From Cellulomonas sp. Root930 (GTDB lineage: Bacteria; Actinomycetota; Actinomycetes; Actinomycetales; Cellulomonadaceae): 64,000 nt of DNA. The stretch is taken from NCBI GenBank assembly GCA_001429255.1, contig LMJI01000001.1, positions 769,882-833,881 of the forward strand, in the 5' to 3' direction. Made by a program: the position numbers and the translations under genes. Below, piece by piece: positions 18,976-37,181 of this stretch; within the stretch, counting starts at the first letter, position 1; each line of letters starts with the position of its first letter. The notes under the pieces are model-generated. The model did no database searches. It saw only the letters and a list, made by a program, of their open reading frames with translations, and was not told the origin of the DNA.

Positions 18976-19025
18976 CAGACCCGCGGGTGACCACCCGAAC
19001 CGGGAGGGCGTGGCCTGGTGGGCCG

Positions 19026-32551: not shown

Positions 32552-34309
32552 GTGGCACGACGTCGCTCCATCGCCGACCTGCTCGTCGCCCAGCTCGTCG
32601 CCGCCGGTGCGCGGCACATCTACGGGATCGTCGGCGACAGCCTGAACCCCGTGGTCGACGCCGTGCGGCGGGCGCGCGAGGACGGTGTCGACATCGCGTG
32701 GGTGCACGTGCGGCACGAGGAGGCCGGGGCGTTCGCGGCCGCCGCGGAGGCCGAGCTCACGGGCCGGCTGGCCGTCTGCGCCGGGTCGTGCGGACCGGGC
32801 AACCTGCACCTGATCAACGGCCTGTACGACGCCAACCGATCACGCGTCCCGGTCCTGGCCATCGCGTCGCACATCCCCAGCGCGCAGATCGGCACCCAGT
32901 ACTTCCAGGAGACCCACCCCGACCGGCTGTTCCTGGAGTGCTCGGTGTACTCGGAGATGATCTCGACCGCCGCCCAGGCCCCGCGGGTCATCCGGTCGGC
33001 CATCCACCATGCCTACGGCGCTCCCGGGGTCGCGGTGCTGACCCTGCCCGGTGACATCGCGGACCTCGACGCGCCCGACGCCGGCATCGACGTGCTCACT
33101 CCCCCACCGGCCCCGCGGGTGGTGCCCGACGACGGTGCCGTGCGCGCGCTCGCCGAGGCGATCGACGCGGCGGGCAAGGTGACGATCTTCGCCGGGGCCG
33201 GTGTGCGCGGCTCGCGCACCGAGGTGCTGGCGCTGGCACGGGCGCTCAACGCACCGGTCGGACACAGCCTGCGCGGCAAGGAGATCATCCAGGTCGACAA
33301 CCCGTACGACGTCGGCATGTCCGGGCTGCTCGGGTACGGCGCGTGCCAGTCGGCCATGGAGGGCGCCGACCTGCTGCTCCTGCTCGGTACCGACTTCCCG
33401 TACGACCAGTTCCTGCCGTCCGGCGTCCGCACCGCGCAGGTGGACATCGACCCGACGCGCCTGGGCCGGCGGACGCGCAACGACCTGGTCGTCCTCGGCG
33501 ACGTCGGCGAGACGGCCACGGCGCTGCTCGCGCTGGTGAAGCCGAAGCGGAGCCACCGGTTCCTCGACCAGATGCTCAAGAAGCACCACCGGGCCATGAG
33601 CGGCGTGATCGGCGCGTACACCAAGGACGTCGAGCACACCGAGCCCATCCACCCCGAGTTCGCTGCCGTGGTGCTGGACGAGGAAGCACCCGAGGACGCC
33701 GTGTTCACGGTCGACACCGGCATGTGCAACGTCTGGGCCGCCCGGTACATCACGCCCAACGGTCGTCGGCGGGTGATCGGGTCGTTCCTGCACGGGTCGA
33801 TGGCGAACGCCGTCCCGCACGCGATCGGCGCGGCCCTGTCCGGCGGAGGTCGGCACGTGGTCGCGATGGCCGGGGACGGCGGCCTGTCGATGCTCCTGGG
33901 CGAGCTCATCACGGTGAAGGCCCTGGACCTGCCGGTGAAGATCGTCCTGTTCGACAACGCGACGCTCGGCATGGTCCGGCTCGAGATGCTCGTCGACGGG
34001 CTGCCCTCCTACGCCACCGACAGCCCACGGATCGACTACGCCGCGATCGGGTCGGCGATCGGCATCCCGTCGGTCCGCGTCGAGAAGCCCACCGAGATCC
34101 GGGCCGCGCTGCGTCAGGCGTTCTCGCACGACGGTCCCGCGCTGATCGACCTGGTCACCGACCCGCGGGCCCTGTCGCTGCCGCCGAAGATCACTCGCGC
34201 GCAGGTCTCCGGGTTCACCGCGGCGATGAGCAAGGAGGTGCTCGGCGGCGGGCTGGGCGAGGTCATGGCGATGGCCCGCTCGAACCTGCGGAACGTGCCC
34301 AGGCCCTAG
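32552..34309 (+). CDS. poxB: Pyruvate dehydrogenase (quinone) / pyruvate oxidase
   Basis: A 585-residue thiamine-diphosphate enzyme. The N-terminal PYR domain has HIYGIVGDSLNPVVDAV (about 22-38) and the catalytic Glu in VRHEEAGAFAAAAEAEL (about 54-70). A central FAD-binding-like domain follows, then a C-terminal PP domain with the ThDP/Mg motif AMAGDGGLSMLLGELITVK (about 437-455). It should decarboxylate pyruvate to acetate with electrons passed to quinone, as in E. coli PoxB, with a C-terminal segment for membrane interaction. GTG follows GGAGG. Its TAG shares CTAG with the convergent MFS gene. Confidence 0.93.
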   Translation: MARRRSIADLLVAQLVAAGARHIYGIVGDSLNPVVDAVRRAREDGVDIAWVHVRHEEAGAFAAAAEAELTGRLAVCAGSCGPGNLHLINGLYDANRSRVPVLAIASHIPSAQIGTQYFQETHPDRLFLECSVYSEMISTAAQAPRVIRSAIHHAYGAPGVAVLTLPGDIADLDAPDAGIDVLTPPPAPRVVPDDGAVRALAEAIDAAGKVTIFAGAGVRGSRTEVLALARALNAPVGHSLRGKEIIQVDNPYDVGMSGLLGYGACQSAMEGADLLLLLGTDFPYDQFLPSGVRTAQVDIDPTRLGRRTRNDLVVLGDVGETATALLALVKPKRSHRFLDQMLKKHHRAMSGVIGAYTKDVEHTEPIHPEFAAVVLDEEAPEDAVFTVDTGMCNVWAARYITPNGRRRVIGSFLHGSMANAVPHAIGAALSGGGRHVVAMAGDGGLSMLLGELITVKALDLPVKIVLFDNATLGMVRLEMLVDGLPSYATDSPRIDYAAIGSAIGIPSVRVEKPTEIRAALRQAFSHDGPALIDLVTDPRALSLPPKITRAQVSGFTAAMSKEVLGGGLGEVMAMARSNLRNVPRP

Positions 34310-35589
34310 GGCACCGGGTGGCGGGCGTCGTAGTCCCAGAACGAGCGCTGCGTCCGGACGAGCACCCACAGGAGCACCACGCACAGGCAACCGCCGACCA
34401 CCGCAGCCCATCCCTCGCCGACCTTCTCGGCCGCCCCGCCGAGCAGCGCCTCGCCCAGCCGGGGTCCACCGGCGACGACGACGATGAACACGCCCTGCAG
34501 CCGGCCGCGCATGTCGTCGGGCGTCGCGGTCTGCAGGATGGTCTGCCGGAACACCGAGCTGATCGCGTCCGCCGCCCCGGCGACCACCAGCATGAGCACC
34601 GCGATCGCGAGGGCCAGCCAGAGCACCTGGTCCGGATGCCCCTGGCCGGCGAGCACGAGGACCAGCCCGAACCCGGCGATGGCCAGCCCCCAGACCGTGA
34701 TGGCCACCGCGATGATCCGGCCCTGCCAGCGGATCCGGGTCAGCCCGCCGGAGAACAGCCCCGCCAGCCCGACGCCGACCGCCGCCGCCGCGGCCATCAC
34801 CCCGGTGGTCGTCGCGCCCCCGCCCAGGTAGACCAGCCCGACCGCCGGGAAGAGCACGCGCGGCGACGAGGTGATCATGGCGACCAGGTCCACGGCGAAC
34901 GTCATGCGCACGTTCTTCTGGGTGCCCAGGTACCGGAACCCGTCGACCACGGACGCGAACCCGGCACGCCCCCGGCGCGTCTCGGACGGCAGCGGCGGCT
35001 GCGCGGGGAGCTGGAAGACCGCGAACAGGGCCGCAGTGAACAGGACGGCGTCGACCGTGTACGCGACGGCGTAGTCGAACGCGGCCACCAGGAACGCCCC
35101 CAGCAGCGGGCCGACCGTGAACGCGACGCTGAACCCGAGGGTCTGCAGGGCGTTCGCCGCCGGCATGAGCTTCGGGTCGAGCAACCGGGGGATGATCGCG
35201 GACCGCGCCGGCGAGCTCACCGCGAACGCCCCGGACTGCACCGCGACCAGCGCGAACAGCACCCACACCTGCGTGTTGCCCAGCCAGGCCTGCGCGGCCA
35301 GCCCGAGGGTGACCACCCAGGTCACGACGGACGCCACCAGCGCGACGGTGCGACGGTCGTAGTGGTCGGAGATCGCGCCGCCGTACAGCCCGAAGAACAC
35401 CAGCGGGACCAGCGCACACAGGCCGAGGATGCCGACCGAGGCCGTCGACCCCGTGATCCCGTACACCTGCAGCCCGACCGCGACCACAGTCAGCTGCGCG
35501 CCGAGGTTCGAGACGGACAGCCCCCACCACAGCCGTCGGAACGCCGGGCTGACACGCAGGGGTGTCGTGTCGACGACGAGCGAGGGCAT
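34306..35589 (-). CDS. MFS transporter, EntS-like
   Basis: A 427-residue major facilitator with about ten to twelve helices, starting PLRVSPAFRRLWWGLSVSNLG, a beginning shared with EntS-type siderophore or drug exporters. The motif-A loop GGAISDHYDRRTVAL (about 70-84) is present. The substrate is unknown; siderophore export is only suggested by family resemblance. ATG at 35589 follows TAAACT by six bases, so it should be leaderless. Confidence 0.87.
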   Translation of the reverse strand: MPSLVVDTTPLRVSPAFRRLWWGLSVSNLGAQLTVVAVGLQVYGITGSTASVGILGLCALVPLVFFGLYGGAISDHYDRRTVALVASVVTWVVTLGLAAQAWLGNTQVWVLFALVAVQSGAFAVSSPARSAIIPRLLDPKLMPAANALQTLGFSVAFTVGPLLGAFLVAAFDYAVAYTVDAVLFTAALFAVFQLPAQPPLPSETRRGRAGFASVVDGFRYLGTQKNVRMTFAVDLVAMITSSPRVLFPAVGLVYLGGGATTTGVMAAAAAVGVGLAGLFSGGLTRIRWQGRIIAVAITVWGLAIAGFGLVLVLAGQGHPDQVLWLALAIAVLMLVVAGAADAISSVFRQTILQTATPDDMRGRLQGVFIVVVAGGPRLGEALLGGAAEKVGEGWAAVVGGCLCVVLLWVLVRTQRSFWDYDARHPVP

Positions 35590-35595
35590 CGGGCG

Positions 35596-35601
35596 AGTTT
35601 A
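35596..35601 (-). promoter_or_regulatory. -10 element (TAAACT) of a leaderless promoter
   Basis: TAAACT lies six bases before the ATG of the EntS-like MFS gene. Confidence 0.6.
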
Positions 35602-35627
35602 GTTGCCCGAGCGACGCGGACTGTCGG

Positions 35628-35695
35628 CGAGCTCGGTGCTTCGCGCCCGGCTCGGTGGCTGGAGTCACCGAGCCGGGCTGTAGCCACCGAGCTCG
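35628..35695. repeat. 68-bp nested palindrome, copy 1 (upstream of gntK)
   Basis: Two inverted repeats are nested: an outer pair CGAGCTCGGTG (35628-35638) with its complement (35685-35695) and an inner pair CCCGGCTCGGTG (35646-35657) with its complement (35666-35677), with an 8-nt loop. All pairs are perfect. The element lies in the gap between the MFS and gntK genes. A second 68-bp element of the same plan lies after gntK. Confidence 0.85.
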
Positions 35696-35726
35696 TCGTC
35701 CCGGGTGCGCGTGCGAGGCTGTCGCC

Positions 35727-36239
35727 GTGAGCAGCCAGCCCGAGCACCTCGTCGTGATGGGGGTGTCTGGCACCGGGAAGTCGACGACCGCCCTCCTGCT
35801 GGCCGCGCGCCTCGGGATCCCGCTGATCGAGGGCGACGACCTGCACCCTGCGGCCAACGTCGAGGCCATGCGCGCCGGCCGGGCGCTCACCGACGACGAC
35901 CGCGGTCCGTGGCTGCGCGCCATCCGAGACGCGATGACGGCGGCCGACGGACCGACCGTCGTGACCTGTTCGTCGCTGCGCCGGTCCTACCGCGACGTCC
36001 TGCGCACCGCGCAGGGCCGCGTGCGGTTCGTGCACCTGGTGGTCCCGCCCGACGAGCTCGCCCGCCGGCTGACGGAGCGCACCGGCCACTTCATGCCGGC
36101 GACCCTGCTGGCCAGCCAGCTGGCGACCCTCGAGCCGCTGGCGGCCGACGAGGACGGGGTGGACGTCCCGGTGACCGGCCCGCCGGAGTCGGTCGCGGAG
36201 GAAGCCCTCCACCTGCTGGCACGCCCGCCGAGTTCGTGA
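35727..36239 (+). CDS. gntK: Gluconokinase
   Basis: A 170-residue small gluconate kinase phosphorylating gluconate to 6-phosphogluconate for the pentose phosphate pathway. The P-loop is MGVSGTGKSTTA (about 11-22), the substrate region EGDDLHPAANVEAMRAGRAL (about 35-54) and the lid RTGHFMPATLLASQLATLEP (about 130-149), all typical of GntK. GTG at 35727 is the start that gives the family length. The stop codon lies inside the left arm of the second 68-bp palindrome, and another such element precedes the gene. No gluconate permease is nearby. Confidence 0.93.
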   Translation: MSSQPEHLVVMGVSGTGKSTTALLLAARLGIPLIEGDDLHPAANVEAMRAGRALTDDDRGPWLRAIRDAMTAADGPTVVTCSSLRRSYRDVLRTAQGRVRFVHLVVPPDELARRLTERTGHFMPATLLASQLATLEPLAADEDGVDVPVTGPPESVAEEALHLLARPPSS

Positions 36240-36296
36240 GTTCGGGTCGAGCTCGGCAGTTGCAGCTACCGAACTCGGCGGGGACTCACGAACTCG
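36229..36296. repeat. 68-bp nested palindrome, copy 2 (downstream of gntK)
   Basis: The outer arms are CGAGTTCGTGAG (36229-36240) and its perfect complement (36285-36296). The inner arms, TCGAGCTCGG (36247-36256) and CCGAACTCGG (36269-36278), pair with two imperfect positions. Length and layout match copy 1 and the CGAGYTCG core is shared. The gntK stop codon is in the left arm. Confidence 0.8.
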
Positions 36297-36313
36297 CGCT
36301 CCCAGGCAGCGCG

Positions 36314-36343
36314 ACGGGCCGGCCGCCTGAGCGACCGGCCCGT
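36314..36343 (-). terminator. Probable terminator between gntK and the ArsR-SRPBCC gene
   Basis: ACGGGCCGG (36314-36322) and CCGGCCCGT (36335-36343) form a perfect 9-bp stem with a 12-nt loop, eleven bases after the stop of the minus-strand regulator. It lacks a T-tract and could work in either direction. Confidence 0.5.
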
Positions 36344-36353
36344 GCGACAGCCC

Positions 36354-37181
36354 TCAGGCCTCCAGCGACGTGCCCGTCTCCAGGAGGGTCTTGAGGTCCG
36401 ACAGGATCTGCGGCCAGCCGCCGCCGAACTGCGGCAGGTCGCCGGAGATGAGCGCCGCGGTGCGCGGTGCGCCGGTCACGTCGTGCACCAGGGTCAGCTG
36501 CGTGACGCCCTCGCCGCGGGGCTCGATCTCGTAGGTGAGCCGCGTGAACCCTTCCGCGCGGGCCTCGTCGTCCCACAGGGTCCGCCAGGTGAGCACCAGT
36601 CGTGAGTTCTCGACGACCTCGACCACCTCGCCGTCGAGGATCGGCTGGTCGGCGGGGGTGCCGTAGGCGACCATGTCCGCCGACGGGAGCGTGGTGAACG
36701 CGCCGCCGGGCGTGAGGTCGAACGTCGAAGGGCTCTTGTAGCCGTAGCGGGCGGTCCACTCCGGCGAGGTGATGGCCTTCCACACGGTGGCGGCGTCGGC
36801 CTTGATCCAGATGCGGTTGACGAGAACGGTCGTGGTGGCCGTGGCGGTCTGCGAGGACATGGTGGTCTCCAGGGCTGTCTTGAGGTCGGTCAGCGCGTGC
36901 AGGCGCTCGGCGCCGAGCACGTCGTACTTGTCGATCCACCGCTCGTGGATCAGCTGGATCGGGACGGCGTTGAGGAAGTGGAGCTTCTCCCGCCCCGATC
37001 GGCGCGTGACGACGAGGCCCGCCTCCTCGAGCACCTTGAGGTGCTTCATGACCCCGAACCGGGTCATCTCGAGGCCCTGCTCGAGCTCTGTCAGCGTGCG
37101 GCCGTCACGCGTGTAGAGCTGGTCGAGCAGGTGGCGACGGGTGGCGTCCGCAAGTGCCTTGAACACCAGGTCCTCGTCCAT
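36354..37181 (-). CDS. ArsR-type regulator fused to an SRPBCC (AHSA1-like) domain
   Basis: A 275-residue two-domain protein. The N-terminal winged helix (about 1-90) includes FKALADATRRHLLDQLY and LEMTRFGVMKHLKVLEEAGLV, the recognition helix region of ArsR regulators. The C-terminal part (about 110-265) is an SRPBCC hydrophobic-ligand fold with VWKAITSPEWTARYG and GGWPQILSDLKTLLETG. These domains are usually encoded by adjacent genes; here they are one chain, implying that ligand binding controls DNA binding directly. The ATG follows TATCGT by seven bases, and a perfect 16-bp palindrome abuts that promoter, indicating autoregulation. Confidence 0.9.
   Translation of the reverse strand: MDEDLVFKALADATRRHLLDQLYTRDGRTLTELEQGLEMTRFGVMKHLKVLEEAGLVVTRRSGREKLHFLNAVPIQLIHERWIDKYDVLGAERLHALTDLKTALETTMSSQTATATTTVLVNRIWIKADAATVWKAITSPEWTARYGYKSPSTFDLTPGGAFTTLPSADMVAYGTPADQPILDGEVVEVVENSRLVLTWRTLWDDEARAEGFTRLTYEIEPRGEGVTQLTLVHDVTGAPRTAALISGDLPQFGGGWPQILSDLKTLLETGTSLEA

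Follow-up and report, generated by a model that had tools for sequence, protein, structure and literature searches.

What two nested palindromes of equal length are doing on either side of a kinase gene is the question raised by a stretch of 64,000 nucleotides from Cellulomonas sp. Root930 (contig LMJI01000001.1, positions 769,882 to 833,881; the whole stretch is called the window below). A sequence-only reading had taken the pair for members of a mobile or structural REP-like family in which folding and not sequence is kept, had pointed to a RAYT-type transposase as the possible partner, and had considered that the pair might mark how the gene between them, named gntK, was acquired. This interpretation is partly supported by the results described here.

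Two nested palindromes beside a kinase gene

The palindromes occupy positions 35628-35695 (copy 1) and 36229-36296 (copy 2), exactly the coordinates and 68-bp lengths first assigned to them. The shared nested layout noticed earlier is 8-N11-8-N14-8-N11-8 in both copies, with four units, two direct and two inverted, and the core of each unit is the 8-mer CGAGNTCG or near it. Copy 1, of the CGAGCTCG/GGTG subtype, lies in the divergent region between an MFS transporter gene (34306-35589, minus strand) and the gntK-like gene (35727-36239, plus strand); its cores are CGAGCTCG at 35628-35635 and CCGGCTCG at 35647-35654 on the plus strand, followed by inverted cores at 35669-35676 and 35688-35695 on the minus strand. 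Copy 2, of the CGAGTTCG/TGAG subtype, separates the gntK-like gene from a convergent gene for an ArsR-type HTH and AHSA1 protein (36354-37181, minus strand), with CGAGTTCG at 36229-36236 and CGAGCTCG at 36248-36255 (plus) and inverted cores at 36270-36277 and 36289-36296 (minus). All three genes are regarded as bystanders. According to Pfam, the gntK-like product is an AAA_33 and shikimate-kinase-like P-loop kinase, the name gntK being that of the sequence-only reading. It had also been noticed that copy 2 contains the stop codon of this gene; it supplies the last two codons and the stop, the gene ending ...PPSS* within CGAGTTCGTGA and the TGA lying at 36237-36239.

The two palindromes are real and go beyond chance. 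In each copy, 27 of the 34 half-positions are Watson-Crick complementary, and G-T pairs number 2 and 3. In DNA-strand folding that included 3-5 flanking bases, copy 1 gave z values of -8.6 and -7.5 and copy 2 of -4.6 and -4.9 against shuffles, and none of 200 shuffles folded as well in any of the four folds. A scan of the window for palindromes of 66-70 bp ranked the two copies one and two, with a complementarity of 0.79; two others reached 0.74 and 0.73, and the maximum in five Markov-shuffled windows was 0.70.

The repeat family and its conserved fold

Within the Cellulomonas sp. Root930 genome, 13 copies were found by BLAST and 15 by a covariance model, all of 68 bp, and the gap in the latter search was wide (weakest copy E 2e-7, next candidate E 0.016). 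By gene calls made with our own script, all 15 are intergenic or touch a gene's last 11 bases, with 9 in tandem, 5 in convergent and 1 in divergent position. Three overlap the last 11 bases of the neighbouring gene and give it the final codons and the TGA stop, always in the same frame and with the ending ...SS* (window 36229-36239, L009:1580-1590 and L010:1598-1608). The copies span an origin-proximal arc from -0.33 to +1.21 Mb around dnaA (C1:1010244), and an arc as short as this had a p of about 0.0002 in a simulation where the two contigs were treated as one circle and near neighbours were merged. No copy was found on the second contig by the covariance-model search. In another genome (G253), the eight copies listed are likewise no more than about 1 Mb from dnaA.

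A three-core pattern searched over a collection of 84,980 species gave at least 115 stretches. Among the matches listed, all 115 loci belong to Cellulomonas, Actinotalea, Pseudactinotalea, Cryobacterium, Sanguibacter or Arthrobacter, or to bins titled Micrococcales or Actinomycetales, and of 297 genomes sampled from the window's order, 42 have palindrome matches at E 1e-4. What emerges is a family of hairpin-shaped 68-base repeats dispersed between the genes of soil actinobacteria, and the suggestion of a REP-like family has held. The spacing of the three cores is fixed by the search pattern itself; in the 83 complete copies of the pattern set (genome_contigs), both outer cores stand at their 68-bp places with at most one mismatch in 67 and exactly as in the pattern in 46.

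Covariation was followed in an alignment (A2), gap-free over 68 columns, in which 13 copies of the Root930 genome stand beside 66 of the 83 from genome_contigs. Among the 17 omitted are copies whose outer core is shifted or degenerate and those of MAG62, which are 69 bp long, and for this reason the outer columns of the alignment look cleaner than those of the whole set. In these 79 sequences, 84% of the cells are paired, as against 72% in shuffles, and 439 paired cells are doubly changed, as against 197; with the partner shifted by one base, the pairing falls to 33-39%. In the 13 own copies alone, further pair types showed no excess (27 vs 26.9 in shuffles), and the remaining covariation measures exceeded the shuffles or nearly so. 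The complementarity amounts to 0.90 and 0.85 in the units and to 0.58 in the spacer, for which 0.44 is expected between different copies, and the units inside one copy change together.

By gene calls made in the same way, the 128 genome_contigs copies comprise 49 in tandem, 39 in convergent and 22 in divergent position, 5 inside a predicted gene and 13 at an edge; the convergent share is 39 of 115 classed copies, compared with 151 of 809 junctions at the same loci. No common tetranucleotide is present at the foot of the 83 complete copies. GCG adjoins the left end in 27 of the 83 and the right end in 39, and the idea of an oriented GCG mark was dropped as it occurs on both sides. Some copies are lengthened into arrays by tandem units of about 19 bp (L051:2861-2990, L075:5209-5290, L109:7661-8000 and L269 of genome G024). 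In Actinotalea caeni, pairs of copies lie 233-235 bp apart in two loci (L071:4934-5234 and L072:1393-1695).

A predicted nuclease gene with palindromes on its flanks

Clustering of the genes around the copies gave one family with all six members at most 230 bp from a copy; among the 15 largest gene families near copies, no other had more than three members kept within 300 bp. The member in the Root930 genome lies exactly between copies C1:1345040 and C1:1346131, 0.54 Mb from the window pair. It is a single gene between palindromes, with an Nramp-type gene and a sigma-70/DUF6596 gene as neighbours and no AbiEii gene beside it, and it also ends inside its palindrome (...PELSS*). It is this gene, and not gntK, that is bracketed by an alike pair in the genome, and relatives missing one palindrome (copy 1 in G030, copy 2 in G059 and G024) still have the gntK-like gene between unchanged neighbours. 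Both results speak against the pair as a mark of gntK acquisition, and its position around that gene looks coincidental. A second, distant homologue in the Root930 genome (L244, G000:C1:1264798-1265661) contains a stop codon in frame, is not flanked by strong palindromes and is perhaps a relic.

The partner protein is predicted to combine an AbiEi-like winged-helix domain with a C-terminal nuclease domain of the Vsr/I-Bth0305I kind. In four proteins scanned with Pfam, the matches (AbiEi_4, AbiEi_1, REase_MTES_1575 and DUF559) were weak and mostly below the cut-off; AbiEi_1 exceeded it in one protein, and REase_MTES_1575 (PF18741) was matched in one of the four, weakly (E 2e-5) and under the curated cut-off. 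PADLOC AbiEi models matched all six proteins scanned. The four proteins had no NCBIfam matches, and a sequence search of the PDB gave just two weak, unrelated ones. A structure was modelled for the homologue from C. humilata, which shares 91% identity with the Root930 protein. In this model (pLDDT 90.5), residues 1-176 resemble 6y8q, an AbiEi antitoxin (Z 11.4, rmsd 6.0, 163 aligned), residues 181-284 resemble I-Bth0305I 3r3p (Z 10.7, 3.0 Å, 96 aligned) and residues 179-283 resemble Vsr 1cw0 (Z 9.1, 3.1 Å, 100 aligned). This fold assignment comes from the VIA-align comparison; Foldseek against the PDB gave no match at E ≤ 0.001, the best being 1zel at E 2e-3. Residues E192, D223, E234, D236, K240 and R255 are kept in 47-48 of 48 homologues, and the conserved acidic residues and lysine, being of the kind that such nucleases use, are probably catalytic.

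The association with palindromes was assessed at 66 of 70 nuclease loci, the other four having no HMM match; they come from 25 genomes, most of which had been chosen for holding palindromes. A strong palindrome (64-72 bp with at least 70% complementarity) is present on both sides in 30 of the 66 loci as against 5 of 288 control genes, and in 27 of the 48 nuclease loci scoring above 120 bits; one or both sides lack it in 36 of the 66. On at least one side it is found in 53 of 66 nuclease loci and 84 of 288 control genes, the control rate being raised because these genes come from loci picked for holding the element. In a sample across the phylum, with no control set, 27 of 29 loci were scored and 8 had palindromes on both sides, in a length range of 56-79 bp; 6 of these 8 lie outside the window's order (as do 22 of the 27 loci), some of them with near-identical flanks of 56-79 bp.

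The two flanks of one gene are cognate. In 46 loci with at least 65% complementarity on both sides, their median identity is 0.80, while across different genes it is 0.39, with a 99th percentile of 0.68; it is at least 0.7 in 36 of the 46 loci and at most 0.55 in 10. From locus to locus, the motifs are highly varied, such as CGAGATCGACGTAC in L207, GAGTCAGACCC in L211 and GTTCGGCA in L210. In 30 matched loci, the flanks are direct in 18, inverted in 8 and undecided in 4, the orientation often being decided by 1-2 bases. At one locus (L350, genome G403), the flanking palindromes are identical after reverse-complementing one of them; the loop is inverted and the orientation around the gene is an inverted one.

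The dispersed copies often match the resident gene. Compared with the flanks of 24 genomes, 56 of 88 rows fit the nuclease flanks of their own genome best, which was reached in 0 of 5000 permutations. One G331 copy is counted twice among these rows (L342 and L085), five of the 60 loci taken for this comparison (two of G208, and one each of G221, G031 and G002) were left unscored as no flank is available for those genomes, and two-copy loci are represented by their best palindrome only, the window of L291, which spans two copies, being counted as a miss. Best matches to the resident flanks were absent in several genomes (0/7 in G278, 0/4 in G055, 0/3 in G015, 0/2 each in G160 and G321, and 0/1 each in G086, G201 and G030), and 5 of the 13 dispersed Root930 copies, of the CGAGCTCG/GGTG and CGAGATCG kinds and including copy 1, fit other genomes better. 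In the 297 genomes, taken as the same set for palindromes and for the gene (presence at E 1e-60), both were found in 29, the palindrome only in 13, the gene only in 14 and neither in 241. The gene is present in 29 of 42 palindrome genomes as against 14 of 255 others (Fisher p 7e-20; 8e-9 outside the window's own family), and a close nuclease is missing in 13 of the 42. Protein distance and motif distance are moderately correlated (Mantel rho 0.37); the AbiEi part does no better than the nuclease part, and the reading domain is therefore not pinned down. Taken as a whole, the association between palindromes and nuclease is well supported.

Of the 11 Cellulomonas relatives searched, 10 have the nuclease gene at one and the same syntenic intergenic position (G056 by a 268-bp match only), and in G059 it is absent from there. 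This distribution looks like inheritance and loss and not like transposition. In G051 (L272), the gene at this position points the other way, as though it had been inverted between its palindromes or inserted anew. The flanking palindromes at this site differ in motif among species, and at the two window sites relatives have a palindrome of another motif or none. The closest relative, the sister species G030, is about 92% identical in this region, and seven shared copy sites were compared with it. The motif differs at three of the seven (L379/L012, L382/L013 and L383/L018); at L381/L017, only 2 of 68 bases differ, and copy 2 and both nuclease flanks keep their motif. Such differences and the doubly changed pairs described above bear out the earlier view that folding is kept while sequence changes. 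Site differences of this kind would be left by in-place rewriting, or by the loss of a copy and its re-insertion where it had stood. G030 has a 68-bp copy where the window has a palindrome-free stretch (18984-19023), and two further G030 copies (L378 and L384) have no counterpart among the stretches compared. At the sites compared with relatives, no target-site duplication, clean empty site or insertion scar was read, and no duplication was visible by eye at the palindrome ends; occupied and empty intergenic regions are strongly diverged, and sites where a sister has no copy (G059; window 18984-19023) also differ in the intergenic DNA around them, which is too changed for the ends to be read.

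Proposed system and rival explanations

In the reading that we favour, and hold to be fairly probable, the palindromes are dedicated DNA sites of a one-gene AbiEi-Vsr nuclease system, REP-like in its arrangement and built around an unrelated enzyme. The winged-helix domain would read a unit of about 12 bp, present four times per palindrome (two direct and two inverted), and at least two protein chains would occupy the whole 68 bp. The AbiEi-like domain is proposed as the reader because AbiEi is described (PMC3985639, part of the text) as binding the inverted repeats TGTTGCTTTTA-N27-TAAAAGCAACA in its own promoter, and the Vsr-like domain as the cutter because I-Bth0305I is described (PMC3943268, likewise in part) as dimerising on a target of nearly 60 bp. 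The nuclease would nick or cut the palindrome in duplex, cruciform or hairpin form, and the cut palindrome would be repaired from, or copied off, another copy, by which copies would spread or be rewritten in intergenic DNA. Each lineage would come to carry palindromes of its own motif, and the nuclease gene would mostly stay at one locus, like a RAYT gene. More tentatively, with the balance slightly against it, the gene may stand for an unnamed selfish or domesticated one-gene class, widespread in Actinomycetota, in which nested palindromes throughout the genome would be recognised and cut by their own nuclease and rewritten by conversion; enzyme and motif would then change together at a constant hairpin geometry.

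Two explanations need no mobility. It is rather doubtful that the palindromes are operators only, through which an AbiEi-type regulator would repress its own and other genes, the nuclease acting elsewhere, for example in defence, and nothing moving. The binding of AbiEi antitoxins to their own promoter (PMC3985639), the PADLOC matches, the confinement of the own copies to the arc around dnaA and the better pairing of units than of spacer, as if the units are read, are all in line with this; but many loci have a second cognate palindrome downstream of the gene, dispersed copies are more frequent at convergent ends than in divergent regions (39 vs 22 of 115), and close species differ in whether a given site has a palindrome. 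It is quite unlikely that they are RNA hairpins or transcription terminators whose folding is kept. Strong folds, compensating changes and the convergent excess would suit terminators, whereas copy 1, like 22 of the 115 copies, is placed between divergent genes, neither window copy is followed by a T-run (by eye), and a separate GC-rich terminator-like hairpin, delimited partly by eye, stands beyond copy 2 at 36314-36343 and has a like in the relatives G024 and G059, both without copy 2. Rfam gave no family at gathering score for positions 35400-36500 (eight matches fell below it), and the motif is specific to a nuclease gene, for which a terminator has no need.

That an ordinary MITE or REP family is moved here by a known transposase, whether RAYT/HUH or DDE, is very improbable. 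The short, dispersed, intergenic palindromes with their patchy presence among genomes would fit it, but there is no visible duplication at the ends, no second large gene family kept close to the copies, and a match of flanks to gene that points to the nuclease. The Y1 class was searched with PF01797, which had no match in the genome and was positive in 5 of 14 control genomes; the RAYT-type transposase of the sequence-only reading was rejected as partner, and an AbiEi-Vsr-type nuclease was found in that role. DUF222-HNH (13E12-like) genes were likewise rejected; of the four that the genome carries, none comes closer to a copy than about 32 kb. Sites of the attC kind were set aside, as the core motif that we take them to carry is absent from the palindromes. 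It is scarcely credible that the palindromes are a mutational by-product, quasi-palindromes kept alike by template switching and slippage with no partner enzyme: the joint change of units within a copy and the extra tandem units of the same period in some copies are of this nature, yet the 68-bp length over many genera, the match to the flanks of the resident nuclease and the co-occurrence with the gene would all be left unexplained.

The closest known system to the arrangement that we favour is the REPtron, in which, according to the published description (PMC8266576), REP palindromes go with a cognate TnpA-REP (RAYT) whose gene is not visibly mobile. Both have dispersed intergenic palindromes, a low-copy partner gene next to cognate ones, and a motif that goes with the partner, here a nuclease. 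Unlike the REPtron, the present family has an AbiEi-Vsr-type enzyme in place of an HUH one and four units in 68 bp (the length of all 15 own copies) in place of 20-50 nt and a GTAG tag; it was not filed as a REPtron because the defining HUH enzyme and the tag are absent. With the EDxHD/Vsr-like homing endonuclease I-Bth0305I, it shares the predicted C-terminal fold and, as proposed, a long target (nearly 60 bp in I-Bth0305I; PMC3943268), but the N-terminal domain is AbiEi-like here, and intact palindromes stand on both sides of the gene in place of a split target. The AbiE type IV toxin-antitoxin system is alike in the predicted N-terminal fold of AbiEi, in the PADLOC matches and, as proposed, in inverted-repeat binding (shown for AbiEi in PMC3985639), and unlike in its bicistronic AbiEii nucleotidyltransferase partner; in the Root930 genome a single gene stands between the palindromes, the nuclease is fused and the sites are dispersed. 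Apart from the weak Pfam match in one protein, the MTES_1575 Vsr-type REase differs in that the named protein is described (PMC3710099, in part) as a giant fusion with HEPN, transglutaminase, helicase and wHTH domains.

Among the matches listed in the literature search (titles and the starts of abstracts, with few subscription journals), none linked AbiEi, Vsr or DUF559 proteins to palindromic repeats, and no description of the palindrome-plus-nuclease system, whose activity is putative, was found there. If the proposal is true, the arrangement of REP palindromes with a partner enzyme has also arisen with an unrelated nuclease, and a function is suggested for numerous, poorly named AbiEi/Vsr-type genes of actinobacteria. 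Many genomes would provide proteins naturally paired with a DNA motif, from which motif reading could be learned, and the question of how short palindromes hold their shape while their sequence is replaced becomes testable. The partner gene is of low copy number, with one to five close members in each of 43 genomes. Three genomes of a family of the same class (f22; G387, G422 and G443) have 10-12 homologues each at E ≤ 1e-20, and at the locus L357 palindromes of the GAGTGTGCGG type were observed.
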